Assembly (NCBI GenBank): GCA_949295025.1
Contig: CASFJK010000010.1
Location: 1-54,229, forward strand
Length of the DNA: 54,229 bases
Source of the DNA: an uncultured Pseudomonadota bacterium
GTDB lineage: Bacteria; Pseudomonadota; Alphaproteobacteria; RF32; CAG-239
Direction of reading: 5' to 3'
Below are positions 2,064-47,695 of the stretch, in pieces. How positions within the stretch are numbered: position 1 is the stretch's first letter; every line of letters begins with the position of its first letter. The notes beneath the pieces were generated by a model. The model saw nothing but the letters and a program-made list of their open reading frames with translations. It made no database searches and was not told the origin of the DNA. The translations under genes were made by a program, and so were the position numbers.

Positions 2064-3266
2064 ATGATAGAAAGTACACCGCCTGGAATTGAACTCAACT
2101 TAGGCAAAGAATTAGCTTATATAATTATTTTGCCCAAAGCGCTGGACGCTATCTCCCAAAAGCAGCGGCGACGTAACAAATCCAACTCCAGTGCCTTATA
2201 TGAAAAGCTTCTTGGCATAAAAAACTCTCTTGATGACCTTTTTATCACAACCTTTCACAGAAACACAGAAGAATACCGACATCAGCTTTATAAAAAAATT
2301 ATTACCGAAAAACTCATCCTAAATATTGCCTGTGGCAAAACATCTGAAATCAAACAAAATATTGAACAAATAATGAAAGAAGAAAATCTTCACTTTGTGG
2401 AACGTGAAGAGAGCCAAATCTCAGCAGAAGAAAAGTTCCTTATCAAAACAGATTTTCAAGGCTTATCACATTATCCTTCTCAAGAACAATTTTCTCCTTT
2501 TTTTCAAAAATATATCAAAAATCACAACCACGACAAAAACAAACCTCATCTTTCTCCCAATGATTATAATTTAGAAAAAATTCCAGCATGGAAATACTTC
2601 AAACAATTTCCTTCTTTTGTTGAAAGATCTCAAACATTCAAATTGGCATTGGCAGAATTTAACATCCCTAAACAAGATATTAAAAATTTAAATTCTTATG
2701 ATTTGATAGCCATTCTAAAAAATTATTCCGTCAAACACAAATTACCTCCTTTTGAAAACTCCAAAATGAAATTTATCAAATTTTTCATTAAGCATCATGA
2801 ACAAGAACTACGTGACTATTATCAAATCAACAAACTCGTCATCATCCAAGCATATCGAAACAAAGGCCTTAATTTTAATTTTGATGAAAACCCTAATGCC
2901 TATCAAGATTTTGTTGAAAAGAGCATCTATCAAATGAAAGAATTTGGTTATGTTCCACCACTATTTAACATCCACCACAAATATCCTGTCAAAGATTGCA
3001 AAAGTGAAAAAGATTTAAGTCTTGCCAATGCTCCTTCAAACTTGTGCCTGATTTTACAATCTCCATACCATCAAATGATGCACTTATTTGATACCAACAT
3101 TTTGGGGAAATCGATTTTTAACAGAAAAGTAAAACGGGTTGAACTTCCGCAAGACCTAATCTTTTTTGGCGGATTTGATAAAAACTTCCAAATTTATCAC
3201 AAGCCAAAAGAAGAATATAAGACAACCATTTTAACCTTCATCAAACAAAAGAAACAAAGAAATTAA
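2064..3266 (+). CDS. HNH-type nuclease, probable toxin
   Basis: This 400-residue protein carries a C-terminal HNH-like zinc-finger nuclease motif: FNIHHKYPV at 301-309 (H304, H305), then N326-L in PSNLCLI, then H336 and H340 in YHQMMH. This HH-x(n)-N-L-x(n)-H-x3-H layout is typical of the treble-clef HNH families found in bacterial polymorphic toxins. The first 290 residues are lysine-rich, helical-looking and unrecognised. There is no signal peptide or known trafficking domain. GGAG sits about ten bases before the ATG. The next gene starts three bases after the stop and encodes a SUKH/YrhA-like protein, the usual immunity partner of nuclease toxins. That pairing supports a toxin role, but a restriction or DNA-repair nuclease remains possible. 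How it would be delivered is unknown. Confidence 0.65.
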   Translation: MIESTPPGIELNLGKELAYIIILPKALDAISQKQRRRNKSNSSALYEKLLGIKNSLDDLFITTFHRNTEEYRHQLYKKIITEKLILNIACGKTSEIKQNIEQIMKEENLHFVEREESQISAEEKFLIKTDFQGLSHYPSQEQFSPFFQKYIKNHNHDKNKPHLSPNDYNLEKIPAWKYFKQFPSFVERSQTFKLALAEFNIPKQDIKNLNSYDLIAILKNYSVKHKLPPFENSKMKFIKFFIKHHEQELRDYYQINKLVIIQAYRNKGLNFNFDENPNAYQDFVEKSIYQMKEFGYVPPLFNIHHKYPVKDCKSEKDLSLANAPSNLCLILQSPYHQMMHLFDTNILGKSIFNRKVKRVELPQDLIFFGGFDKNFQIYHKPKEEYKTTILTFIKQKKQRN

Positions 3267-3269
3267 AAA

Positions 3270-3698
3270 ATGCAAGAACTGATACAAAAACTAAAAAATC
3301 TTCCCCTAATGTTAACAGCTCGTCCGGTATCTACCGAACAAGTTATCCATACGCAGCAAGATCTAAAAATTAATAATATTGCCGCCATTCCTTTAGACTT
3401 TATTGAATTGATGCATCACATAAACACATTAGAATTTGACGGAACTTATCTTTTGGGCATCAATCCCCGTTCCTATTATCTAGATATTTTTGCCGAGAAT
3501 GAAATGCTCAATTTACCAAATAAAGAAAATTTGCTCATTCTGGGATATGATGAATTTGAATATTTAACATACAATCAAACTACTCAATGCTATCAAATAA
3601 TTGACAAAGACACATTAGAAGTGCTACAAACATTCTCAGATTTAGTTAAAGCCATCAAATATTTATTTAAGATAGACAATGACGAAGAATATTTTTGA
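3270..3698 (+). CDS. SUKH/YrhA-like protein, probable immunity partner of the HNH nuclease
   Basis: This 142-residue acidic cytosolic protein has the layout of the SMI1/KNR4 (SUKH) superfamily, closest in appearance to YrhA-type members: an N-terminal helix, an IPLDFIELMHHIN segment (compare the P-x-D/E-Y-x-x-F/L motif of SUKH), a GINPRSYYLDIF strand, then LLILGYDEFEYLTYN and a C-terminal helix (DLVKAIKYLF). SUKH proteins commonly neutralise nuclease toxins encoded just upstream, which is the arrangement here. There is no clear Shine-Dalgarno site, and the start is three bases from the nuclease stop, so translation is probably coupled. Its 3' end overlaps the tsaC start by 20 bases. The family call is by eye and moderately secure; the immunity role is inferred from position. 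Confidence 0.6.
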   Translation: MQELIQKLKNLPLMLTARPVSTEQVIHTQQDLKINNIAAIPLDFIELMHHINTLEFDGTYLLGINPRSYYLDIFAENEMLNLPNKENLLILGYDEFEYLTYNQTTQCYQIIDKDTLEVLQTFSDLVKAIKYLFKIDNDEEYF

Positions 3699-7551: not shown

Positions 7552-9594
7552 ATGACAGAAGAAAACAGCACAGAACAACTCCCGGAAGAAATCCAGGAAC
7601 CGATTCTGGAGTCGCAACCGGAAAAGGAAAAAGCTAAAAGCATTCTTCTAAAAGAAAGATATGACATTAACTTCAATCTTCCGTTAGAAAATCTCAATTC
7701 TAACGGAGCTTTAGCATATAAAGTTAATGATAGGATTGACTCTCGACGAGAATTGTTTGCTTTGATTTGCAATGAAGAAACCTGTCCCCGATCATCAATT
7801 TTACCATATTTAAAATCATTAGATCATCCTAATGTTATGAAACTAATTGAATATGGAATCATAAAAAATCCACTTACACATGGTAATAGTATTGCTCTCA
7901 TATATATTGTTCCTCAAGGTGGAAAAGTCATTGACCAACTTGAAAATCTTAATTTGAAAATTAATTTAGGCAAATTAAAACACATCATTTTCAGTTTAAT
8001 TTCTGCTGCCGAAGCTCTAAAAGGATATGGCATCACCCACCGTTCAATTCGTCCCGACAATCTATATTTCAAAAACAAAGAACTGACAGAAATTGTTGTA
8101 GGTGATTGTGCGGCTTCTTTTCCGGCATACCATCAACCCGGTGCATATGAAACCATAGAAAGCTTAATGTCTATGCCTGCCGGTCGCGGTAATGGTACTG
8201 AAAAAAATGATATGTACGCTATCGGAACAACATGTTTGCGCCTTATAAGTTCTCAAGAGCCTCTCGAAAACTTAAGTACGGCAGAAATAATCCGCTTAAA
8301 AATTAAAAAAGGCTCATTCAATGCTTTATCCGCAGATGAAAAAATACCAACCGGTTTGGTCCCTGTTTTTAAAGGTATGCTTACCGATGATAAAAATCTA
8401 CGCTGGAACTTTATCCAAACTTATAATTTTCTTGAAGGAAAAACACCTTATTTATCAAATTCTCCGTTACAAGAAAAATTAAAACGCTCTCTTACGATCA
8501 GTGGAGAAAAATGTTATTCTGCCAAAGAAGTTGCATACAATCTTTTCCTTCATCCTAATGATAGCTGGGATATCATTAAATCGGGCAAATTATTAGAATG
8601 GATTAAAAACGGTCTTGAGAGTGAAGATATTTACCATAATATTGAAAAAATAACTTCTCAGATAGATGAAAGTGCCAGTCACGATATCATCATCGCTCAA
8701 ATTTGCATTTTATTAGATCCGGCAGCTCCTATTCACATTCATGATATTTCTGTTTTTCCTGACGGAGTTTCAAAAGCTATCTATTATTGCATGCAACACA
8801 AAATTCCGCTGAACAATTTTCAAGAATTATTTACGACGGATCTTATTCGCAACTGGTATCTGGAACAACCGGATGTACGTTCTCCCATAAATTTATCTGA
8901 GTTAAAGATTAACATCAATCGTAAAGATATTGGCTATGGATTGGAGCGTATTATATACGACTTGGATGAGGATCTTCCATGTTTGAGCCCCTTACTTGGT
9001 AAAGAATATGTAAACAATGCGCCTCGTCTACTCAAGGCTCTTGATGCCAATTATCCCAATATCAAAGGAGAAATTCGTCCTTATGATAAAAATATTGTTG
9101 CTTTTTTAAGAAGCAAACTCGGCAAAAAAATTGATGGTATTATTCTTGATTTAAATGCCAACAAAGATAGTTTGCAAATATCTGCCATCATTCGTTTATA
9201 TGCCGACATTCAAAAGAAATATGGTCCAGCTCAGTTAAGTAATTTAGGTCAATGGTTATGTTTAATATCCAAACCCGTTATTGAAAGTTATCATAACTTA
9301 AAAATTCAAAAAGACATAAAAAAAGACTTGGCCAAAATATCAAAAAGTGGAAAAATCATAGAAATTTTCCAAGTTTTGGAAGATGCTGAGATAAAAGAAA
9401 AAGATAACAATATGTATAAAAAAATCCAAAAAGAGATTATTCTCTTATTGGCAGAAAAAAACAAACTGACGACTCAAAGCAACCGCATCATCGATGAGGC
9501 AAAAGAAAATGCTATCAAATTTGCCAGCATTTTGGCGGTTATGACTATGATTGCATCATTCACATTCAATTTAATTCAATGGATTTCACAATGA
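7552..9594 (+). CDS. Membrane-anchored protein with a degenerate Ser/Thr kinase domain
   Basis: This is a 680-residue protein. Residues about 55-300 follow the protein-kinase fold: a P-loop-poor N lobe, LDHPNVMKLIEYG (90-102), a catalytic-loop equivalent HRSIRPDN (163-170), a subdomain IX-like NDMYAIGTTCLRL (219-231), and an LRW motif near 282. Key catalytic residues are missing: the HRD aspartate is S165, the beta-3 lysine is not seen (FALIC), and the DFG position reads GDC. It is therefore most likely a pseudokinase, although an atypical active site cannot be excluded. Residues 300-650 are helical and unrecognised. A single C-terminal membrane helix (about 653-676) would leave the kinase-like domain in the cytosol. 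It overlaps the next membrane-protein gene, suggesting a joint complex. Confidence 0.75.
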   Translation: MTEENSTEQLPEEIQEPILESQPEKEKAKSILLKERYDINFNLPLENLNSNGALAYKVNDRIDSRRELFALICNEETCPRSSILPYLKSLDHPNVMKLIEYGIIKNPLTHGNSIALIYIVPQGGKVIDQLENLNLKINLGKLKHIIFSLISAAEALKGYGITHRSIRPDNLYFKNKELTEIVVGDCAASFPAYHQPGAYETIESLMSMPAGRGNGTEKNDMYAIGTTCLRLISSQEPLENLSTAEIIRLKIKKGSFNALSADEKIPTGLVPVFKGMLTDDKNLRWNFIQTYNFLEGKTPYLSNSPLQEKLKRSLTISGEKCYSAKEVAYNLFLHPNDSWDIIKSGKLLEWIKNGLESEDIYHNIEKITSQIDESASHDIIIAQICILLDPAAPIHIHDISVFPDGVSKAIYYCMQHKIPLNNFQELFTTDLIRNWYLEQPDVRSPINLSELKININRKDIGYGLERIIYDLDEDLPCLSPLLGKEYVNNAPRLLKALDANYPNIKGEIRPYDKNIVAFLRSKLGKKIDGIILDLNANKDSLQISAIIRLYADIQKKYGPAQLSNLGQWLCLISKPVIESYHNLKIQKDIKKDLAKISKSGKIIEIFQVLEDAEIKEKDNNMYKKIQKEIILLLAEKNKLTTQSNRIIDEAKENAIKFASILAVMTMIASFTFNLIQWISQ

Positions 9595-10085
9595 AAAAAA
9601 TAACCAAAAAGAAAAATGCTGATTTTAAAAAATCATTCAAATCATTGTCGACAGCCAGAAAAAGTTTATTATTCATTTTTTTGGCTCTGATGGCATCATC
9701 TATATTGCCCGCCATTATTGTCATTCTGATTGGTTTATTACCCACTTTAACCATTCTTTTTGTTGATCCTAAAAATTCAGCAAAATTAGTCATTGTCGGT
9801 TGTTTCAATTTATCCGGACTTTTTGTTTATTTAATCAACTTAATCAACCGCTTTAATATGGACGGAGCTTTTTCCATATTAGGCGATGTTTTTAATATGA
9901 TAATTATGTTAGGATCAGCAGCTCTCGGCTTTTTGGTTTATTATGAAATGCCAAATTTATTTGCTTATGTTGCCAAAAATTTTGCTCAAAGAAGATTGGT
10001 TCGCATTGATAAAGAATTAACAAAAATCACCGAAGATTGGGGTGATAATATTATAAATGAACAAATCAATAAAATTGGTAAATAA
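9591..10085 (+). CDS. Small membrane protein coupled to the pseudokinase
   Basis: This is a 164-residue protein with a basic N terminus (MKKITKKK), three or four hydrophobic segments (about 24-58, 63-84, 98-117) and a charged C-terminal tail that looks cytosolic. I do not recognise the family. Two starts are possible: 9579, and 9591, which makes an ATGA overlap with the pseudokinase stop. The latter is preferred as a classic coupling arrangement, with a weak GGA seven bases upstream. The gene ends five bases before the stop of the converging rpoH. Its position suggests that it works with the C-terminally anchored pseudokinase. Confidence 0.7.
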   Translation: MKKITKKKNADFKKSFKSLSTARKSLLFIFLALMASSILPAIIVILIGLLPTLTILFVDPKNSAKLVIVGCFNLSGLFVYLINLINRFNMDGAFSILGDVFNMIIMLGSAALGFLVYYEMPNLFAYVAKNFAQRRLVRIDKELTKITEDWGDNIINEQINKIGK

Positions 10086-12454: not shown

Positions 12455-13384
12455 ATGAGTAATGCAATTTTAGAAGAAAAACCTCAAAATACTGAAGTTG
12501 AATCTCTATTTAATGATGATGACGATGCTGAGTTTGAAAAACTTTTGCAAGAATTTATTTCTTCTGAAATAACTGATGAAGACACTGAAACCATGGCTTC
12601 TGACTATAAAGAAGCACATAAACAAGAAGAAGCAGAGAAACTCTCTTTATCTGAAGAAATTGATGATATTCCTGTTGACGCATCCTCGTCCTCAAGCAAA
12701 CTGTACGAAGAAGAAAAAAACTTATTTGATGCCCACGAAAATTTTAGCAATGCCATTTTTCAAATTGCAGATAAAAACAATATAAAACGTCCTTCATTCA
12801 AAATTACAGAAGATTTATTATATCCGCGTTATAAACCTTATCTTGGTGAAAAATTCGGCTACGATTCTCTTGCTGGTTGGGATGTAATGATAAAAGCCTA
12901 CCCTACCAGAATTATGAATATTAACCCCGGAGCCAAAGATGAAGAACTTTTGGAATATGCGGAAAAAACAACCGATGAAGACTTACAAATGGCAATCATT
13001 TCTTATGTTGAAATTTTGATTGAATTGGAAAGTTGCGAAATAGCCTATGAAAAAAGAAGACTCAAAGCCAAAAGAAGAAAAATTGAAAAAGAAGTGATTG
13101 AAGAACATCAACGACGCATTGATAAAATGAAAAAATATATTTCAGCCATTGAAGAGAAAAAATTTCCTATAGATGCCGAAAAATTGATAAAAAACTACTT
13201 CAAAACCTCACGCAAAGATGCCGATGGTGCTTTCAAAGTTTTAACAAACAATCCGGCAACTTTTGCTCCAATTGAAACCAGTAAAATCAAAGACCGCTTT
13301 TTTGGACTCATTAAAGCCAAACCTGAAGATGGTATAAGAATCAATAAGGAATTAGGACTTTTCCTAAAAAAACTGAAAGTTTAA
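12455..13384 (+). CDS. Unknown acidic cytosolic protein of the coupling-ATPase locus
   Basis: This is a 309-residue protein with no signal or membrane segment. The first 90 residues are strongly acidic and probably disordered (runs such as NDDDDAEFEKL and a serine stretch near 76-80). The remainder looks helical, with a basic coiled-coil candidate at about 197-235 (EKRRLKAKRRKIEKEVIEEHQRRID). A good AGGGAT Shine-Dalgarno precedes the start. I do not recognise the family. It is followed after 78 bases by a promoter and the 660-residue gene. By position it could be an adaptor or chaperone-like partner of the VirD4-type ATPase four genes downstream; that is inference only. Confidence 0.65.
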   Translation: MSNAILEEKPQNTEVESLFNDDDDAEFEKLLQEFISSEITDEDTETMASDYKEAHKQEEAEKLSLSEEIDDIPVDASSSSSKLYEEEKNLFDAHENFSNAIFQIADKNNIKRPSFKITEDLLYPRYKPYLGEKFGYDSLAGWDVMIKAYPTRIMNINPGAKDEELLEYAEKTTDEDLQMAIISYVEILIELESCEIAYEKRRLKAKRRKIEKEVIEEHQRRIDKMKKYISAIEEKKFPIDAEKLIKNYFKTSRKDADGAFKVLTNNPATFAPIETSKIKDRFFGLIKAKPEDGIRINKELGLFLKKLKV

Positions 13385-13399
13385 TTTTAGAGAAAAATA

Positions 13400-13428
13400 T
13401 AGACAAAATATAAAAATAATGTTATATT
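13400..13428 (+). promoter_or_regulatory. Sigma-70-type promoter for the 13463 gene
   Basis: TAGACA (13400-13405) and TATATT (13423-13428) are spaced by 17 bases, 34 bases before the start codon. This suggests that the genes from 13463 to the terminator at 19575 form their own transcription unit. Confidence 0.65.
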
Positions 13429-13462
13429 TAAACCAAATGTAAAACAATTAAGGGTTAAAACC

Positions 13463-15445
13463 ATGTCAACCGCAGATGATATCAGAAAAATGACACAAAA
13501 TTTTGTTGAAAATAAAAGCCAAAGCAATCTCCAAAATATGAGTTTGGAAGTTTTATCTCAAAATTGGGCTTCTGCCAAAAAAGAACCTGATTTCGAACAA
13601 CAAAAACAAAATTTGTCTCAGAGCCTTTCTGATGAAATATTGCAAAACAAAATCAGCGAATATATGACCAATTTGGAATATGGACGTTTTTCTCCTGCCG
13701 ACTTTCCAAATATCACAGAATTCTGCGAAGAATTTGGTTATAAAAATGCCAATACTGATTTGAAATCCAAAATAGACAATTTAAAAGAAACCATGGAAAC
13801 ATGCCGCTTAAACATGCCTAAAGAGCTCACCGTCAAATTTGATGATCAACTGAAAGCTGGTTTTCCTCTTCCGCATTTGGATCAAGTTACAATCAGCGGC
13901 AATGTAGAGCAACTCAAAAACTTAGAAGATAAAAAATCATTAGTTGGTAAAAATTTTACTTTCACTGATGATAACAAAAATTTAATTGGCGGTGTTGAGT
14001 ATGATGACAAAAACAATGCTCACATTCTTTGTACAAATAGCGAAGGAAATGTTGTAGAATATAAGCTTTCTCCTGAAAATAAACTTTATCGCGTTAATGA
14101 TGATAAAACCGAACAAGAAATCAATCTAGAAAACAAAGAAGCTCTTTCAACACAAGATATTCGCGCTTATAACATTGCAAAATCGTCTCAAAAAGTTTGG
14201 AAAAAATTTATCAACAAAGAGCTTGATAAAAACATTCAAAAACCAACAACAAAATTCAATGAAGGTGGCATAAAAACGACTAAAGTCAATGAAGGTGAAG
14301 CAGAAGAAAATATACCTGCAGCCACAAAATTTGATGAAGGTGAAAGCAAGAAAAAAGAAGAAGGTGAATTAGGCAATGAAGATGCCAATCGCCACGCCTT
14401 CCCTAACAATGATTTTCAATGGAAAGAAGATGATATCATTAAAGTAATGTTCCAAGATTGGTTTTTGGCAGCAGCCAATAGTGCTACCAATTTTGCCTTA
14501 AACCATATTGAATATGCTGCAGCCGGAATTTGGGATACTATACAATCTTCATACAGAAATAGAAAATCTGATGATGATACTCCGAAAAAAGAAGAGAAAA
14601 AACCAGATATCACCCACCAGTTTTTTAACGGTATTGAAGATATTTCTCAACAAAGCATCACCAATCTTCAAACTGCGCATGATAATCAAGCAATCGTTGA
14701 TCAGGTCAAGGGCGGAAACGTCAAAGACACAGTCATCCAAAATGATTTATTACGCGACTTTGCTCAACAAACCGGAGTTGATGTTGAAGGTCTGTTAAAA
14801 CAAGGAGAGCCCGAAAAAACAGTTCCATTGTTAACAACAATGGCTGCTTTATATGCAAAATATACAGACACATATGCCAAAGCATCTATTCTGGATGAAA
14901 AAATGCATGATCATCATAGTTTTGAAAATGTAAACCCAGATGATTTATATGCACAAAAAAGAACAGAAGGCGGAAAAATTTTAAAAAGAATATTATATGA
15001 AGGTCTTAAAGAGAATCCGGAAAATAATAGTTTAAAATTTTTCCAAAAAACGCTTGAAAAAGCCAATAAAGACATGGATAGTGCTTATAAAACAAGTCTT
15101 AAAGATTATGACAAAGAAAACTATAGTGAGCATGGAAAAACTCCCAAAGACAACACAGTTTTACATGCTTATCAAGAAAATTTGAACAAACAAGAACCAA
15201 CAAGTTTATATGATTTTGCACGCGAACAATCTGACATAATCCGCAATAGAGATTATATCACCCAAGGCTTCAATATGGAAAAATCCGAATTAGACGCTGC
15301 AGAACAAAGCAACTTTATCAAACGTCAAAATCTTAAAAGAACTAAAGATTTTATCACCAAAGGTTTAGACCCGAACAAGAAAAAAGACATGATAAATATA
15401 ACCGATGGTATGATTGTACCACTCCGTCCACAAGGAAGAGAATAA
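13463..15445 (+). CDS. Unknown 660-residue protein of the coupling-ATPase locus
   Basis: This is a large hydrophilic protein with no signal peptide and no family I recognise. Its N-terminal third is helical and acidic. Residues about 160-215 look beta-rich (KNFTFTDDNKNLIGGVEYDD). A short degenerate repeat lies at 262-295: TTKFNEGG, TTKVNEGE, ATKFDEGE, then a lysine/glutamate spacer, like a flexible hinge. Residues 331-358 are moderately hydrophobic and alanine-rich. The C-terminal half is lysine-rich and helical. AAGGG precedes the ATG. It could be a substrate, an effector-like protein or a structural component of the locus; the sequence does not decide between these. Codon use is AT-rich, unlike the ATPase gene downstream. 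Confidence 0.65.
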   Translation: MSTADDIRKMTQNFVENKSQSNLQNMSLEVLSQNWASAKKEPDFEQQKQNLSQSLSDEILQNKISEYMTNLEYGRFSPADFPNITEFCEEFGYKNANTDLKSKIDNLKETMETCRLNMPKELTVKFDDQLKAGFPLPHLDQVTISGNVEQLKNLEDKKSLVGKNFTFTDDNKNLIGGVEYDDKNNAHILCTNSEGNVVEYKLSPENKLYRVNDDKTEQEINLENKEALSTQDIRAYNIAKSSQKVWKKFINKELDKNIQKPTTKFNEGGIKTTKVNEGEAEENIPAATKFDEGESKKKEEGELGNEDANRHAFPNNDFQWKEDDIIKVMFQDWFLAAANSATNFALNHIEYAAAGIWDTIQSSYRNRKSDDDTPKKEEKKPDITHQFFNGIEDISQQSITNLQTAHDNQAIVDQVKGGNVKDTVIQNDLLRDFAQQTGVDVEGLLKQGEPEKTVPLLTTMAALYAKYTDTYAKASILDEKMHDHHSFENVNPDDLYAQKRTEGGKILKRILYEGLKENPENNSLKFFQKTLEKANKDMDSAYKTSLKDYDKENYSEHGKTPKDNTVLHAYQENLNKQEPTSLYDFAREQSDIIRNRDYITQGFNMEKSELDAAEQSNFIKRQNLKRTKDFITKGLDPNKKKDMINITDGMIVPLRPQGRE

Positions 15446-15458
15446 CGTTTAGAAACAC

Positions 15459-15947
15459 ATGAAAAAAATATTAAAATACATAAGAACTACTATATCTCTA
15501 GGCATCTGGACATATCTTTATATGCTAATTTCCGGAAGTCTTTATATTTTTATATGGAATTTTAATATTTTTTCAGCAGATAATTGGAACATTGTCTATC
15601 GCTATTGGGAAAGCGGTGGTGTCATCCACACATGGAAAGATTATCTCCTACTGCTTTTCTTAATTGCCTATATTCCTTTTTGGTACATTGGTTGGAAATA
15701 TTTTCATAAATTAAACTTTTTGCAAATTTTATTGTGGCCGATTAATAAATATAATCAACACATGATTGAAAAATATGGTGCAGATTCCAATCATATTGTT
15801 TTAAAATATATGGGCACAGGCGGCATAAAGATTGAAGAAGAAATAGAAATAAAATCAAAACCCAAAACCAAAATAGAAACCGATGCCGAAGTAAACAAAA
15901 TTCGCTCAGCAATAGCTGAAAAAATAAATTCTGTAAAACATAAATAA
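15459..15947 (+). CDS. Membrane protein, paralogue of the next gene
   Basis: This is a 162-residue protein with two predicted membrane segments (about 11-34 and 62-80) and a charged cytosolic tail (residues 95-162, lysine/glutamate-rich). Its first 100 residues align with the first 105 of the gene at 16019: an N-W-x-F-x-I-F-type start, then x-W-x(6)-W-x-S-G-x-x-I, a K before the second helix, and I-P-x-W-x-x-G-W at its end. The start is 13 bases after the previous stop, with no clear Shine-Dalgarno. The family is unknown to me. It appears to be the short member of a tandem duplication that lacks the C-terminal domain of its neighbour. Confidence 0.7.
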   Translation: MKKILKYIRTTISLGIWTYLYMLISGSLYIFIWNFNIFSADNWNIVYRYWESGGVIHTWKDYLLLLFLIAYIPFWYIGWKYFHKLNFLQILLWPINKYNQHMIEKYGADSNHIVLKYMGTGGIKIEEEIEIKSKPKTKIETDAEVNKIRSAIAEKINSVKHK

Positions 15948-16018
15948 AAAGATAAACACTTTTTAATAAATGAGATATAAAATAAAGGAAGGTCTGCAAA
16001 GATCATAAGGAGTAAAAC

Positions 16019-17320
16019 TTGAAACCTATACTGATATTGATGCGCATAATCTTTGTTGGTATTTTCTGGAGCATTTTCTTTCTGGAAGGTATTCGGGTTA
16101 TTATGCTCAAAAACTGGAGATTTGATATATTCCGCAAAGAACATTGGGAATATGCATGGGATTTATGGCTCTCTGGATGGATCATTGCCGATGCAAAGGA
16201 ATGGGCTTTTGTCTTAATAATATTAACATTCATCCCCTTATGGCTAACCGGCTGGGCAGCGCTAAGTGTCATTGTTTGGGAAAAAGTTTTTCTTTCCATT
16301 GTTAAATTTCCAGTTACCCTGTTTAAAAAATTGTTCTTCCAACAAGTTAAAATTATTGCTGCCACAACAGGTGTAAAGAAAATTAAAAAGAAAAAATCAT
16401 ATAAAGAGATTCGTCCAAAGAGCATTCGTCCTCCTCTCGATGACCATATGTTTGAAACAGCCTCGTCTGCTCAAGCTAAAGCACCTATTTCAACCGCTCC
16501 GGTTATTGAGCCTTTGTCACCAATGATTTCTGTGCAACCATCACAAAATTCAGCAACAAGTGAAAATAAATTTGACCACTCTTTGTTCAAATTTGATGAA
16601 GATGAAGATTTTGACTTTGATTTTGATGCTTTTGACGATGATAAAAAATCTGAAAAAGAAGATACTCAGTCTTCTGCTACCGATGAAGAAGAAGCTCCTG
16701 TTGTAGAAAAAGCTCCCAAAGCAAATAAAAAAGAAAAATCGCCGAAAAAAGATTTACCTGCCTCAAGAGACAACAGCAACAAACAGCCAAAGAACAAAAA
16801 CAACAATAACAACAAAGGTAATGGCAATTCTACTTTGGACATTATCAAACAAAAAGGCTATGAAGTTATCACCGGTGTCACTATCAAAAATAATTTAATT
16901 GACTTTATTGGTGTTGCCGCCAACCAAATTTGCATCTGTTTAATTGATAAAGAACCGGGAGATTGGCTTGCTGATGAAGAGCGTTTCAACGATGAAGAAC
17001 CACTATGGTTCTCAGAAAGTTCACACCGCATTTCACCTGTACGCAAAGTAGATTTGGCTAGACAACATGTAATTGATAAATTAGAAAATGCAGACTTCCA
17101 TTTTGATGTAAAAGCTTATGTTATTGAACAAATCGGTAACATTATCAATGCTGAAGATATGTTTGAAATTTGGGATGATATAGGGGTAAATGTTACCAGA
17201 ATTGATCGTGGAACACCAAAAGAATTAAAATTATTCTCAAAAACTCTTGATGAAGCAATTGAAAGCATTGACAAAGACAAGCTTGAAAAGATAAAAAAAT
17301 TAATAAGAAATATATCATAA
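16019..17320 (+). CDS. Two-helix membrane protein with acidic linker and C-terminal domain, upstream of the coupling ATPase
   Basis: This is a 433-residue protein. The TTG start is set by AAGGAG six bases upstream; an ATG seven codons inside is less well placed. Two membrane helices (about 5-28 and 60-90) match the paralogue at 15459. Residues 120-285 form a low-complexity linker with an acidic block (about 185-215, DEDEDFDFDFDAFDDD) and an asparagine/lysine-rich block (about 255-275). A compact C-terminal domain (about 280-430) starts QKGYEVITGVTIKNNLIDFIGV and contains alternating beta and alpha segments. The opening resembles restriction-like nuclease folds, but no catalytic set is clear. 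The gene ends 22 bases before the VirD4-like gene, so the proteins probably work together at the inner membrane. Confidence 0.7.
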   Translation: MKPILILMRIIFVGIFWSIFFLEGIRVIMLKNWRFDIFRKEHWEYAWDLWLSGWIIADAKEWAFVLIILTFIPLWLTGWAALSVIVWEKVFLSIVKFPVTLFKKLFFQQVKIIAATTGVKKIKKKKSYKEIRPKSIRPPLDDHMFETASSAQAKAPISTAPVIEPLSPMISVQPSQNSATSENKFDHSLFKFDEDEDFDFDFDAFDDDKKSEKEDTQSSATDEEEAPVVEKAPKANKKEKSPKKDLPASRDNSNKQPKNKNNNNNKGNGNSTLDIIKQKGYEVITGVTIKNNLIDFIGVAANQICICLIDKEPGDWLADEERFNDEEPLWFSESSHRISPVRKVDLARQHVIDKLENADFHFDVKAYVIEQIGNIINAEDMFEIWDDIGVNVTRIDRGTPKELKLFSKTLDEAIESIDKDKLEKIKKLIRNIS

Positions 17321-17342
17321 AGTCATAACTTAAGGAAAGAAC

Positions 17343-19562
17343 ATGGCGATAGAAAAAAAAGGCGAAGAATGGGAAGAATATAACAGCGCCGTTAAATGGA
17401 TGACCATTACCGTTTTAACGGCCATCGGTGTTACAATTTTTCTGGCAATCGTATCCATGCCGTTAGGTTATCTTATCGGCACTGGTATTTCTAAACAATC
17501 AATCAGCGATGTTGGCAAATTCATCTCTATTATTTTCAGTAATCCTGATTATTTGTTTTCACGCTATTGGAGCTGGATAAAACAACTTTCCAGCTATAAT
17601 GGAAGTTTTTCTTTCAGCCTGTGGCTTCCGATTCTCCCTTTCCTCAGCTTACCCATAATTTTGGTTGTTGGCATTATCACCAACCCCTATCGCTTTCAAT
17701 CAAACATTCATGGTTCTGCCCGTTTGGCTGAATTAAGCGATATTAAGAAAATGGGCTTGCTTAATGGTTTCTGCCAAGTTGTTGGTCGCTATAAAGGCCA
17801 TTTGCTGAAAATGAACGAAACATTATCCACTTTGTGCTGCGCACCTCCGGGTACCGGTAAAACTGTTGGTGTGGTTATGCCAACTATTTTCCACTCTCCC
17901 GGAATGAGTATCGTTGTAAACGATCCAAAACCTGAATTGTGCTTTAAAACAACCGGTGCACGTGCCAAGGTCGGACCTGTATTTGTCATCAACTGGGGTG
18001 CAGAAGACAATCCGGCTGAAGGTATATATTACCCAAGTTGGAACCCTCTGTCTCCAACCGCCATTCCGGCCCCTGGTCCGGACCGCGATATGTACATCGA
18101 CTCCATGTGCAACGTTTTGGTTGAAGATCCTAAAGGAGGTGCAGACCCACACTGGTCTAAAACCGGTCGTGCTGCCTTAACCGGCTTTTTACACTTTATC
18201 GCTTTTAAATGTGAAAAAGCTCGCGCCAACGACTACTTCATCGGCCGCATTTATGAAGGTAAATTAGATGAAGAAGATAAAAAAGTCTTAGAAGGCTACT
18301 ACCTTGAAATGAACGACCCAATGGCTGCCCGCGCCGTTGCCAACTTGCGTTCAGGAAACCTGACAATTGATAACTATTTACCGATTGGTACGTGGAACTT
18401 GTTACCGGAACGTTGGGTCGGTCGCGAAGCTTGTATTGCTATGATTTTGGAATGGATTACCGAAGCCCAAATCAAACAATCTCAAGACATTAAGCGCCGC
18501 TTGGAAGAAGGTGATCAAATGGCTGCTATGGCAGACCCAATGCGCGATTTGTTGGAAGAAGCTATTACCGAGGCAAGAAAATTTGGTTATTCTCAACGTT
18601 GTATCGTTGAATTGAGCCAATTAAGCTCAATGCCGGATAAAGAGCGTGGTTCTGTGCTTTCAACCGGTTTCTCTGGTATTGGTATTTTCAAAAACTCCGC
18701 TGTGGTTGCTCGAACCAGCTTCAGTGATATTAACTTTAAAGATTTGCGCGGTATGAAAGACCCAATTACCGGTGAATGGAAACCAATTTCCGTTTACTTG
18801 TCAGTTAACCAAGTTGATGCTAAAGCTTTGAGCGTGATTTCCGGTACCTTTATTGACTTAATGTCAAACTACCTGATTGCAAACCCGCCAAACTTTGTTA
18901 ACAAAAGTGATGGTAAAATGGGTCCTTTCCCGACCTTATTCGTGCTCGACGAGTTTCCGACCATGCCGAAATTAAGTGCTATTATTGAAGGTCCGGCGGT
19001 CGGACGTGGTCAAAAAGTTTCTTATCTGCTTATCGGACAAGACTTAGGTCAAATTTCCGGTAAATATGGTAAAGATGACTTGGAAACCGTTATTTCTACC
19101 ACCGCCTGCAAAGTTATTTTGTCTCAAAACAACGAGGTAACCGCGCAACGTTTCTCTAAGATGATTGGTAACAAAACAGTTCAAACCTCATCATACTCTA
19201 AAACCGAAGGTGGTTTGGGTATGGCTAAAGGACAAAACCCATTCTCTAAAAACGTTAGCTACCAACTTCAAGGAGCTCCGGTTATCAGTACGACCCAATT
19301 ATTGAGCTTGCCAACACTTAAACAAGTTGTTTTGATGCAAGGCTTTATTGATCGTCCGATTATGGCTGATGCTCCTCGTTGGTTCTTAGATAAGCACATG
19401 ACAGCATTGGCAAAACTTCCCGCCTCACCTAACGTTCCAGATTGGATTGTGGCTCAGCGTGAAGATGTCAACGATGACATGCTTGCCAAACTGGGAATTG
19501 ATTATGATCCGAATGAAGATACCGGTGAAGAAGAATTCTCAGATGAAGAATTGGCAAAATAA
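17343..19562 (+). CDS. VirD4/TraG-family type IV coupling protein (ATPase)
   Basis: This is a 739-residue inner-membrane ATPase of the type that recruits substrates to type IV secretion or conjugation channels. Two N-terminal membrane segments (about 18-48 and 92-112) precede the soluble part. Family landmarks are NIHGSARLAEL (121-131), Walker A APPGTGKT (167-174), the DPKPEL strand (194-199), Walker B LFVLDEFP (532-539), then GPAVGRGQKVSYLLIGQDL (550-568) with the motif 3 glutamine. A roughly 100-residue insertion (about 300-410) and an acidic C-terminal tail are present. AAGGAAAG precedes the start. No VirB or Dot/Icm partner lies in the window. Codons are visibly richer in GGT, CGT, ACC and AAC than in the upstream genes, as in strongly expressed genes. 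The family is firm; the system it serves is unknown. Confidence 0.93.
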   Translation: MAIEKKGEEWEEYNSAVKWMTITVLTAIGVTIFLAIVSMPLGYLIGTGISKQSISDVGKFISIIFSNPDYLFSRYWSWIKQLSSYNGSFSFSLWLPILPFLSLPIILVVGIITNPYRFQSNIHGSARLAELSDIKKMGLLNGFCQVVGRYKGHLLKMNETLSTLCCAPPGTGKTVGVVMPTIFHSPGMSIVVNDPKPELCFKTTGARAKVGPVFVINWGAEDNPAEGIYYPSWNPLSPTAIPAPGPDRDMYIDSMCNVLVEDPKGGADPHWSKTGRAALTGFLHFIAFKCEKARANDYFIGRIYEGKLDEEDKKVLEGYYLEMNDPMAARAVANLRSGNLTIDNYLPIGTWNLLPERWVGREACIAMILEWITEAQIKQSQDIKRRLEEGDQMAAMADPMRDLLEEAITEARKFGYSQRCIVELSQLSSMPDKERGSVLSTGFSGIGIFKNSAVVARTSFSDINFKDLRGMKDPITGEWKPISVYLSVNQVDAKALSVISGTFIDLMSNYLIANPPNFVNKSDGKMGPFPTLFVLDEFPTMPKLSAIIEGPAVGRGQKVSYLLIGQDLGQISGKYGKDDLETVISTTACKVILSQNNEVTAQRFSKMIGNKTVQTSSYSKTEGGLGMAKGQNPFSKNVSYQLQGAPVISTTQLLSLPTLKQVVLMQGFIDRPIMADAPRWFLDKHMTALAKLPASPNVPDWIVAQREDVNDDMLAKLGIDYDPNEDTGEEEFSDEELAK

Positions 19563-46095: not shown

Positions 46096-46611
46096 ATGGC
46101 AGAATTTGATGATTTTGACAAATTAGATGACGATGAAGAACATACAGAAGTCAATAAGAAAAAGATTCTGTTGTTTTTATTACCTGCTTTGATAGCAATT
46201 GGTATTGCTGTCGGTCTATATCATACATTTGAAAGTTCATATAACGACGTTAAAGGTTTGCCATACAAAATCTTAGAACAAAATGAAGAAAATAAACAAA
46301 ACATCATCTTTTATGATTTGCCTGAAATAACAGCTGTTCTCAGAAATTCAGAAGGCAAAAATGACTTAGTCAGTTTTAAAATCAGTATAGAACTAAATAA
46401 TAAAGAAGATATTCAAAAGATAGAAGTTTTATTACCTCGTTTTTATGATACAATTTTGGCGCATACCAGAGAACTCAGAACCGAAGAAGTCAGCGGAACA
46501 AATGGTCTATATTGGCTCAAAGAAGAACTTCTATATCGTTTAAAATTAGTTGCCAATCCAATAAAAATTACGGATATAAACTTCAAAAGCTTTGATATTC
46601 AAAAGAAATAA
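46096..46611 (+). CDS. fliL: Flagellar basal-body protein FliL
   Basis: This is a 171-residue single-pass inner-membrane protein that associates with the flagellar stators. A short acidic cytosolic N terminus (MAEFDDFDKLDDDEE) is followed by one membrane helix (about 24-44) and a periplasmic FliL domain with FYDLPEITAVLRNSEGKNDLVSFKISIEL and the C-terminal VANPIKITDINFKSFDIQ ending typical of the family. GGAG lies eight bases before the ATG. It is the first gene of a five-gene flagellar unit, and its end overlaps the possible longer start of fliM. Identification also rests on fliM directly downstream, the standard order. Confidence 0.93.
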   Translation: MAEFDDFDKLDDDEEHTEVNKKKILLFLLPALIAIGIAVGLYHTFESSYNDVKGLPYKILEQNEENKQNIIFYDLPEITAVLRNSEGKNDLVSFKISIELNNKEDIQKIEVLLPRFYDTILAHTRELRTEEVSGTNGLYWLKEELLYRLKLVANPIKITDINFKSFDIQKK

Positions 46612-46621
46612 TAAAGGAAGT

Positions 46622-47695
46622 ATGGTCGTGGTTGAAGGAAATCAAAAAACACAAGCTACCGAAAATTCTAATTGGGCAGATAAAATTGAAGTCTCGGAAA
46701 AAGCTTCAACGACAACAGATTCTGCTGCTGAAAGCAAAATTTTAAACCAAGAAGAGATCGATTCTCTTTTGGGCTATCACAATGACGATGATTCTGAATA
46801 TCGTAGCATGAAAACCGGCGTTAGAGCTATTTTAAACAGCTCCATGGTTTCATATGAACGTCTTCCTATGCTCGAAATTGTTTTTGACCGCCTCATTCGT
46901 TTAATGGCCACTTCTTTAAGAAACTTTACCCAAGACAACGTTGAGGTTTCTTTAGAAAGCATTGAATCAATGCGTTTTGGTGAATATATTGATGCCTTAA
47001 CGCTCCCCACATTACTTACCGTCTTCAAAGCTGAAGAGTGGGATAATTATGGTTTAATTTCTTTAGATAGTTCTTTGGTTTATTCTATTGTAGATGTTTT
47101 GCTCGGAGGACGTCGCGGTACTGCAGCCATGCGTATTGAGGGACGCCCATATACCACAATAGAATTAAACCTTATCAAAGATATGATTCAACTGGTTCTC
47201 AGTGATTTGTCTACCGCTTTTGACCCAATAACAACCGTAAACTTTGTTTACGATCGAACAGAAACCAATCCACGCTTTGCCACCATTTCTCGTATGTCAA
47301 ACGCAGTGATTGTTGCTCGCCTTCGTATTGATATGGAAGACCGCGGCGGTAAAATAGACTTAATGATTCCTTATGCAACATTAGAACCAATCAGAGAACT
47401 TTTGTTACAAATGTTTATGGGTGAACGTTTCGGAAGAGACGCCATTTGGGAAAACCACCTTATGGAACAACTATGGGATACAGACATTGAACTCAATGCC
47501 GTTATGAAAGATGTTGAAGTAAAATTTGGCGAAATATCTAATTGGAAAGCAGGTTCTTTCCTCCCCTTAGATATGGCTCCACATGATGATATCACATTAT
47601 TATGCGGCGATGTTCCCCTCCTAACCGGTTCCATGGGAAGAAAAGGTAAAAAAGTAGTCATTCGCATTAAAGGAAAGGCTGAAAAAAATGGATAA
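46622..47695 (+). CDS. fliM: Flagellar motor switch protein FliM
   Basis: This is a 357-residue C-ring protein that binds phospho-CheY and sets the rotation direction. The CheY-binding peptide is present as LNQEEIDSLLG (about 41-51), here pushed inward by a 40-residue N-terminal extension. The middle domain (about 75-260) carries SMRFGEYIDALTLPTLLTVFKAEEWDN and LLGGRRG; the C-terminal SpoA domain (about 285-350) includes DVEVKFGEI and LLCGDVPLLTGSMGRKGKKVVIRI. The start at 46622 has AAAGGAAG close upstream; an in-frame ATG at 46592 inside fliL is less well supported. It overlaps the DUF6468 gene by eight bases. Confidence 0.95.
   Translation: MVVVEGNQKTQATENSNWADKIEVSEKASTTTDSAAESKILNQEEIDSLLGYHNDDDSEYRSMKTGVRAILNSSMVSYERLPMLEIVFDRLIRLMATSLRNFTQDNVEVSLESIESMRFGEYIDALTLPTLLTVFKAEEWDNYGLISLDSSLVYSIVDVLLGGRRGTAAMRIEGRPYTTIELNLIKDMIQLVLSDLSTAFDPITTVNFVYDRTETNPRFATISRMSNAVIVARLRIDMEDRGGKIDLMIPYATLEPIRELLLQMFMGERFGRDAIWENHLMEQLWDTDIELNAVMKDVEVKFGEISNWKAGSFLPLDMAPHDDITLLCGDVPLLTGSMGRKGKKVVIRIKGKAEKNG

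Follow-up and report, generated by a model that had tools for sequence, protein, structure and literature searches.

A conserved five-gene block around a VirD4-family ATPase in gut Alphaproteobacteria: a candidate coupling complex for VirB channel genes on another contig

The VirD4 block and its conservation

We analysed a 54,229-nucleotide window from an uncultured alphaproteobacterium of RF32, which we take to be the order label of the host group, and detected a block of five genes that closes with a VirD4-family coupling ATPase. The window is one (C10) of the 43 contigs that make up a 1.68 Mb genome, and the open reading frames (ORFs) of the block are co-directional, as described in a preliminary description made from the letters alone, with gaps of 78, 13, 71 and 22 bases between successive ORFs (Table 1). 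VirD4 is preceded by an acidic protein (P309), a 660-residue protein (P660) and two membrane proteins (TM162 and TM433, the latter with a TTG start codon), and none of the four matched a Pfam or NCBIfam family above any curated cut-off, in line with their first being called unrecognised. The ATPase had been judged complete, and it matched T4SS-DNA_transf (PF02534; 1.8e-57) and TraG-D_C (7.5e-23), with bit scores of 195.7 for PF02534 (cut-off 20.1), 81.3 for PF12696 (cut-off 22) and 62.9 for PF10412 (cut-off 20.5); Walker A (APPGTGKT) and Walker B (LFVLDE) motifs stand at the places first given for them. Hydropathy peaks at residues 20-38 and 95-113 mark its N-terminal membrane helices, and its C-terminus lies 48 residues beyond the PF02534 match.

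The five genes are kept as a block in gut Alphaproteobacteria. A scan of a genome collection gave 202 loci coding for a TM433 relative, and the best 80 of these (hereafter the named loci), whose titles refer to Azospirillum sp. CAG:239 and to uncultured members of the Alphaproteobacteria, several of them sampled from animal guts, carried VirD4 in 79 cases, TM162 in 80, P660 in 76 and P309 in 72. The TM162 model also matches TM433, and a separate TM162 was listed for each named locus (partial in L114). Contig ends account for the single VirD4 miss and for seven of the eight P309 misses, the real one being L159, while one P660 miss falls at a contig end and the other three leave a gene-length gap. 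Far from never occurring together in related genomes, the genes form a partner set that is kept across the family. In 17 stretches from the family and its sister family, VirD4 and TM433 were matched in every one (VirD4 being split into two ORFs in L030), the gene for a DUF6476 protein in 12, and the block was flanked by conserved RluD-like and sigma-factor-like genes, names that we assigned ourselves. Throughout this work the relatives compared are not independent of one another.

TM433 was VirD4's closest companion gene at greater distances as well. It was matched in 20 of 289 genomes of the class, and we took 17 stretches around its relatives; one (L262) belongs to G011 of the family itself, leaving 16 from other families. 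VirD4 was seen in ten of these 16, with the TM433 relative upstream in all ten and directly adjoining in nine (a 129-residue ORF lies between them in L259), and the two genes remain adjacent in families f64, f77, f108 and f125.

In a midpoint-rooted VirD4 tree with long branches, the VirD4s found together with TM433 formed one supported group (99/96), placed beside those of G029 and G033, two genomes whose VirD4s sit inside clusters of the virB8-9-10-11-D4 type and in neither of which TM433 was matched. The window's VirD4 is 99% identical to that of G001, with a nonsynonymous divergence (dN) of 0.007. Fourfold-site identity was 0.69 with G001 (0.33-0.56 for the other genes compared), but 0.52 with G004 and 0.44 with G003, and on the lower values with G004 and G003 we rejected a recent transfer of VirD4 as the cause. 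Most of the identity to G001 is therefore ascribed to strong purifying selection, and a recombination event with G001 may lie behind part of it.

Table 1. Genes of the VirD4 block and other features of the window
Feature	Position	Strand	Remarks
P309	12455..13384	+	acidic, unknown fold; without membrane helices; C-terminal half conserved
P660	13463..15445	+	fast-diverging; C-terminal GRE; candidate type IV secretion substrate or docking protein
TM162	15459..15947	+	paralogous to the membrane domain of TM433; lacks a NERD-like domain
TM433	16019..17320	+	2-3 membrane helices; linker variable and acidic (by eye); C-terminal domain ~268-433 NERD-like
VirD4-family coupling ATPase	17343..19562	+	two membrane helices; Walker A 167-174; Walker B 532-537
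DUF6476 protein, 94 aa	12160..12444	+	frequent 5' neighbour of the block; Pfam PF20082 35.6 bits, cut-off 24
400-aa protein	2064..3266	+	HNH-like motif near C-terminus (by eye); possible toxin; outside the block
SUKH-like protein	3270..3698	+	possible immunity protein; outside the block

The partner proteins and the genes near VirD4

The two membrane proteins are paralogous, as the preliminary description had noted: hhalign of their membrane domains gave an E-value of 3.5e-24, and the TM162 hidden Markov model matches TM433 at about 1e-17 in relatives. Some other families carry tandem pairs of full-length genes that combine the membrane and NERD-like domains (TM-NERD), so TM162 is read as a shortened second copy. 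We rejected the idea that the membrane domain of TM433 is a copy of VirD4's, since hhalign gave a probability of 0.3-0.5 against 0.9 and 1.4 for reversed controls.

The last domain of TM433 is highly conserved, with the invariant stretches GDWLADEE, PLWFSE and SPV, and resembles the NERD family (PF08378) in profile comparisons. Pfam NERD was matched by 21 of 45 TM433 relatives at E-values up to 1 (best 2.3e-4), and homologues in G021, G008 and G010 reached the curated cut-off of 22.1 bits. Aligned by hhalign with 30 NERD rows, the domain gave an E-value of 6.7e-5 (probability 63.6), and a set of 22 more varied TM433 homologues gave 1.1e-7 (probability 94.2), each E-value being that of one comparison; the probability was 0.1-0.2 for five negative controls, one of which was a reversed alignment. 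The NERD rows were 30 of 31 (N161 gave no reading), with the reading of each chosen by a rule favouring NERD motifs; N209, evidently in the wrong frame, was left in, and N195 and N196 are identical. The hallmark of catalytic NERD is E-x-K, which most of the rows carry. TM433 has L308, I309 and D310 at the aligned positions, so that the nuclease motif is absent, and a single homologue of the 22, the first copy in G021, has D-x-K (D-D-K) near the site. Given a NERD-like domain without E-x-K, we take this part of TM433 to serve docking rather than catalysis, and TM433 further differs from NERD proteins in being membrane-anchored and tied to VirD4. No match to TM433 was found in a plasmid collection at E-values up to 0.01.

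P309 carries a net charge of -16 and has no helix above the membrane threshold; its profile matched no solved structure at E-values up to 1, and a Pfam scan of its relatives returned scattered matches only. P660 diverges fastest: between the window and G001 its dN is 0.271, followed by TM162 (0.196), P309 (0.13) and TM433 (0.088), with synonymous divergence near or past saturation for most block genes. Identity to the P660 copies of the three nearest relatives is 61-63% and falls to 12-35% in the other 14; by eye, a short stretch near residues 320-345 is better conserved.

A short Gly/Ser-Arg ending ([GS]R plus at most one further residue) closes 44 of 77 P660 copies, compared with six of 917 other ORFs of the same loci and with none or one in each other block family; the Fisher value for this difference is not a fair probability, because the relatives are not independent. 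A less redundant P660 set had the ending in 36 of 62 copies against 0-5 at ten upstream offsets. The wider ORF sets examined for the ending, here and below, were drawn up mechanically and may include false ORFs. In 372 ORFs drawn from about a third of the genome the ending occurred six times, whereas seven internal offsets gave 0-4; by itself it is therefore unspecific. Those six include P660 itself and a pentapeptide protein encoded directly 5' of a second VirD4 homologue in this genome, located on contig C4 (L023:8718-11036, G000:C4). The corresponding pentapeptide protein has the ending at 12 of 15 loci, with two others ending in GGNER and one locus having none listed, and pentapeptide repeats were confirmed in all 11 proteins tested. 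In all 15 copies of the second VirD4 (L023, L047-L060) Walker B ends in D-D or D-N rather than D-E, Walker A is altered as well in two (L059, L060), and the protein looks like a pseudo-ATPase.

Two further families, an HNH-like one ('a') and a SUKH-like one ('b'), follow VirD4 in ten stretches from other families and in four of the window's family (L034-L037). Both lie 3' of VirD4 in 24 of 70 usable named loci, ten having been set aside because VirD4 was missing or near the end. The 'a' proteins have an HNH-like motif, degenerate in L259, with which a PDB match to pyocin AP41 aligns; that match, second in its list, is not significant (E-value 0.4). The 'b' proteins resemble SUKH immunity proteins, with Pfam matches below cut-off and a PDB match at 0.0012 to 2icg, which we take to be a SUKH protein. 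Among 233 ORFs outside the family, 14 had the Arg ending and nine of these were 'a' proteins; within the family none of 26 'a' proteins had it. The ending is thereby common to three unrelated families adjacent to a VirD4 homologue in some or all lineages: P660, the pentapeptide proteins and, outside the window's family, the HNH-like proteins. An HNH toxin with a SUKH immunity protein is an established pairing (PMC3482391).

This genome has its own 'a' and 'b' pair on contig C6 (L274) and a more distant pair in the window, upstream of the block. The 400-residue protein of the latter matched the 'a' profile at 1.4e-5 with a large bias term and no Pfam family above cut-off. Its neighbour gave a circular match of 8.7e-39 to a 'b' profile that contains it, the independent evidence being a phmmer match to L248_b at 3e-10, and Pfam SUKH_6 fell below cut-off at 0.013. 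The two are possibly a toxin and immunity pair. In G202, a genome with the VirD4 block, there are arrays of HNH-like genes (L275 on G202:C26 and L276 on G202:C22), one of them beside a SUKH-like gene.

Elsewhere in the window, positions 7552-10085 hold a kinase-like protein (Pkinase 32.5 bits, cut-off 31.7) and a small membrane protein; the kinase-like gene was matched in ten of the 17 stretches from the family and its sister family and also in G181. FliL and FliM genes at 46096-47695 indicate that the organism has flagellar genes.

VirB genes elsewhere in the genome and comparison with known systems

The preliminary description had found no VirB, Dot/Icm or relaxase gene in the 54 kb. This stood for the type IV secretion proteins of this genome, G029 and G033, none of which was matched by the 148 ORFs of the window except by VirD4, which matched its own paralogue; models for Dot/Icm and further relaxases were not run on the window. 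Calling VirD4 an orphan is true of the window only, as the genome carries the second homologue on C4 and, on contig C9, genes for VirB2, VirB4, VirB6, VirB8, VirB9, VirB10 and VirB11, which include the VirB4 and VirB6-10 types that had been proposed for a search, other than VirB7. Above Pfam cut-offs were two of three VirB2, VirB4, one VirB6, two VirB8, VirB9, VirB10 and VirB11, while VirB3, VirB5 and VirB7 were not identified in this genome. The three VirB2-like genes surround VirB4 together with matches to PilO, a secretin and TcpQ, and the two VirB8, VirB9, VirB10, VirB11 and one VirB6 genes lie farther along the contig.

We tested 20 genomes, 19 of the family and one of the sister family, for both parts of such a system. 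VirB4 was present in all 20 and VirD4 in 19, that is, 18 of the 19 family genomes and the only sister-family genome; in the one miss, G011, P309 and P660 run into a contig end. Coupling protein and channel therefore co-occur although they are unlinked, and the proposal of a coupling-protein membrane system that works without a VirB channel finds no support and was rejected, VirB genes being present in the same genome.

VirB10 (L026:7298-12376) has 1692 residues with many beta-flower repeat matches and is preceded by a 1243-residue protein (L026:3563-7294) with similar repeats by eye. A long membrane protein at L027:470-3673, VirB6-like by cross-hits, has a C-terminal VgrG3-like match (84.4 bits, cut-off 27) and so may include a wall-cutting enzyme. 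At L024:9-3659 and L025:12798-18530, beside the VirB genes, lie the Pfam matches to PilO, secretin and TcpQ and, by eye, two secretion-ATPase-like genes and pilin-like genes; a PilN-type gene also adjoins VirB2-VirB4.

With VirB/D4 (type IVA) secretion and conjugation systems the genome shares VirB2, 4, 6, 8, 9, 10 and 11 and VirD4 relatives; it departs from them in having these genes spread over at least two contigs, with VirD4 in its own partner block, a 1692-residue VirB10 with beta-flower repeats and PilN-, PilO- and TcpQ-type genes beside VirB2-VirB4. The best-covering plasmid VirD4 matches, on plasmids of Erythrobacter aureus and Microvirga sp. VF16 (34.3% and 32.4% identical), belong to systems whose genes run virB8-9-10-11-D4 (in Microvirga, two small genes precede D4); there, unlike here, VirD4 lies beside the virB cluster and no TM433 match accompanies it.

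In Dot/Icm systems, icmP and icmO are adjacent. The coupling complex of these systems (DotL-DotM-DotN-DotY-DotZ with IcmSW) likewise combines a VirD4-family ATPase with a partner that has N-terminal helices and a cytoplasmic domain, and includes several further adaptors. DotM has three membrane helices followed by cytoplasmic residues 116-380 that are all-alpha (PMC5802825), whereas the TM433 domain is NERD-like by profile, and no DotM chain was among its PDB matches at E-values up to 1; both results speak against DotM homology. DotL has a C-terminus extended by about 200 residues (PMC5802825), compared with the short tail of the block's VirD4. Because the DotL-type tail is missing and a NERD-like domain would not be all-alpha, we do not file the block under Dot/Icm, though it may work alike. 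In the antibacterial X-T4SS of Xanthomonas, VirD4 recognises effectors at their C-terminus (PMC10025392); in the group studied here, HNH-like and SUKH-like pairs lie 3' of VirD4 in many relatives. The Arg ending is short where the XVIPCD domain of X-T4SS effectors has about 120 residues, and a role in killing is conjectural here. A literature search on type IV secretion in RF32, CAG-239 or 'Azospirillum sp. CAG', and on NERD with type IV secretion or VirD4, returned nothing on this system, subscription papers being mostly outside the search.

Interpretation of the block and its alternatives

We suggest that the block codes for the dedicated coupling complex, or substrate receptor, of a VirB/D4-type system on the chromosome, the channel of which is encoded on a separate contig, a reading to which we give a probability of about 0.65 from sequence comparison. 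It agrees with the earlier idea of a substrate-receptor module of a distant, divergent secretion system, most of the VirB genes being on another contig, and the preliminary interpretation as a whole is partly supported. VirD4 would be the ATPase delivering substrates to the VirB channel, and TM433, with TM162 as its shortened paralogue, would be a membrane adaptor presenting cargo to VirD4, its NERD-like domain probably serving as a cytoplasmic docking surface for VirD4 or for substrates. P309 would be a soluble accessory protein used in part of the clade only, and P660, which diverges like a secreted protein, a candidate substrate or substrate-like docking protein. The proteins would form a physical complex, and its cargo would be protein rather than DNA.

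Several observations weigh against this. Because VirD4 is unlinked to the VirB genes, only co-occurrence pairs the two, and the second VirD4 homologue is present in 15 of the 20 genomes tested. Six of the 16 distant stretches, which were picked for having a TM433 relative in the first place, show no VirD4: L249, L260 and L261 come from short contigs or lie at or close to a contig end, and L254, L258 and L264 hold the TM433 relative away from VirD4, those in L254 and L264 being second copies in genomes whose first copy adjoins it. P309 was found in eight of 23 genomes searched directly and in none of the 15 outside the family and its sister family; relatives were seen in the distant stretches L248, L250 and L251, with hits in G181, G202 and G405. 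The window's own TM433 has no Pfam NERD match, and the Arg ending is absent from 33 of 77 P660 copies.

A bolder version, in which the system extends across Alphaproteobacteria of the gut and others with small genomes, a membrane-anchored TM-NERD pseudo-nuclease is the receptor partner of VirD4, the Gly/Ser-Arg ending is an export signal and the system exports fast-evolving proteins, including nuclease toxins against neighbouring bacteria, is tentative and, taken whole, doubtful. Arg-rich C-termini are known signals in the Agrobacterium VirB/D4 system (PMC10025392). Against the export-signal idea stand the 33 P660 copies without the ending and the mean net charge of the last 20 residues, 1.8, which is not above the 2.5 of the preceding 20. 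P660 could instead be a cytoplasmic scaffold or chaperone whose ending is a docking tail for VirD4 or TM433, a serious competitor that falls a little short of even odds. It is a single gene that precedes the membrane genes at a constant position in 76 of 80 loci, a pentapeptide protein with the same kind of ending is encoded at the equivalent position next to the second VirD4, and the DotL coupling protein has several adaptor companions (PMC7280309). Very fast divergence is more usual for cargo, however, and G202 carries VirD4 on contig C9 but HNH-like array genes with the ending on C26. Overall, P660 appears about equally likely to be cargo or a docking protein.

The remaining alternatives concern the machine itself. 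In a conjugation system VirD4 would link a relaxosome with the VirB channel and DNA would be handled by the NERD-like protein, NERD being a nuclease-type fold. The two plasmid VirD4s with the best coverage do come from virB clusters on large alphaproteobacterial plasmids, near topB and a Rad52-like gene in Erythrobacter and a Rad52-like gene in Microvirga, and G021, which has relatives of the block's VirD4 and TM433, has a PF03432 relaxase. Those plasmids are nevertheless typed as non-mobilizable, TM433 lacks the E-x-K of NERD, and nearly every member of the family has the block, with RluD-like and sigma-factor-like genes as its neighbours. PF03432 was absent from nine of nine and PF08751 from 12 of 12 genomes of the family and its sister family, other relaxase classes not having been searched, and the absence of these two main relaxase families makes DNA transfer less likely; we consider it improbable. 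Alternatively, TM433 would be a working nuclease in the membrane, such as an enzyme of defence or DNA uptake, with a secondary link to VirD4. This would fit NERD being the best recognisable relative of TM433, the D-D-K of the one G021 homologue and the three relatives away from VirD4. It is very improbable given the replaced E-x-K positions and the fact that TM433 is linked to VirD4 at 79 of the 80 named loci and in every distant stretch with VirD4. That the four proteins are unrelated housekeeping genes and chance neighbours is hardly credible. In its favour, the flanking RluD-like, sigma-factor-like and DUF6476 genes are conserved neighbours as well; the 80-locus counts and the persistent TM433-VirD4 adjacency in families f64, f77, f108 and f125 contradict it.

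If the coupling-complex reading is true, these little-studied gut bacteria would nearly all carry an export machine whose kind of substrate receptor is its own and departs from both the Dot/Icm and the classical VirD4 model, and the C-terminal ending would offer a simple way to list its cargo. The partner proteins are few enough to be expressed and tested as a group. The block would also show that a coupling protein which looks orphan when a single contig is viewed may be part of a system with scattered genes.

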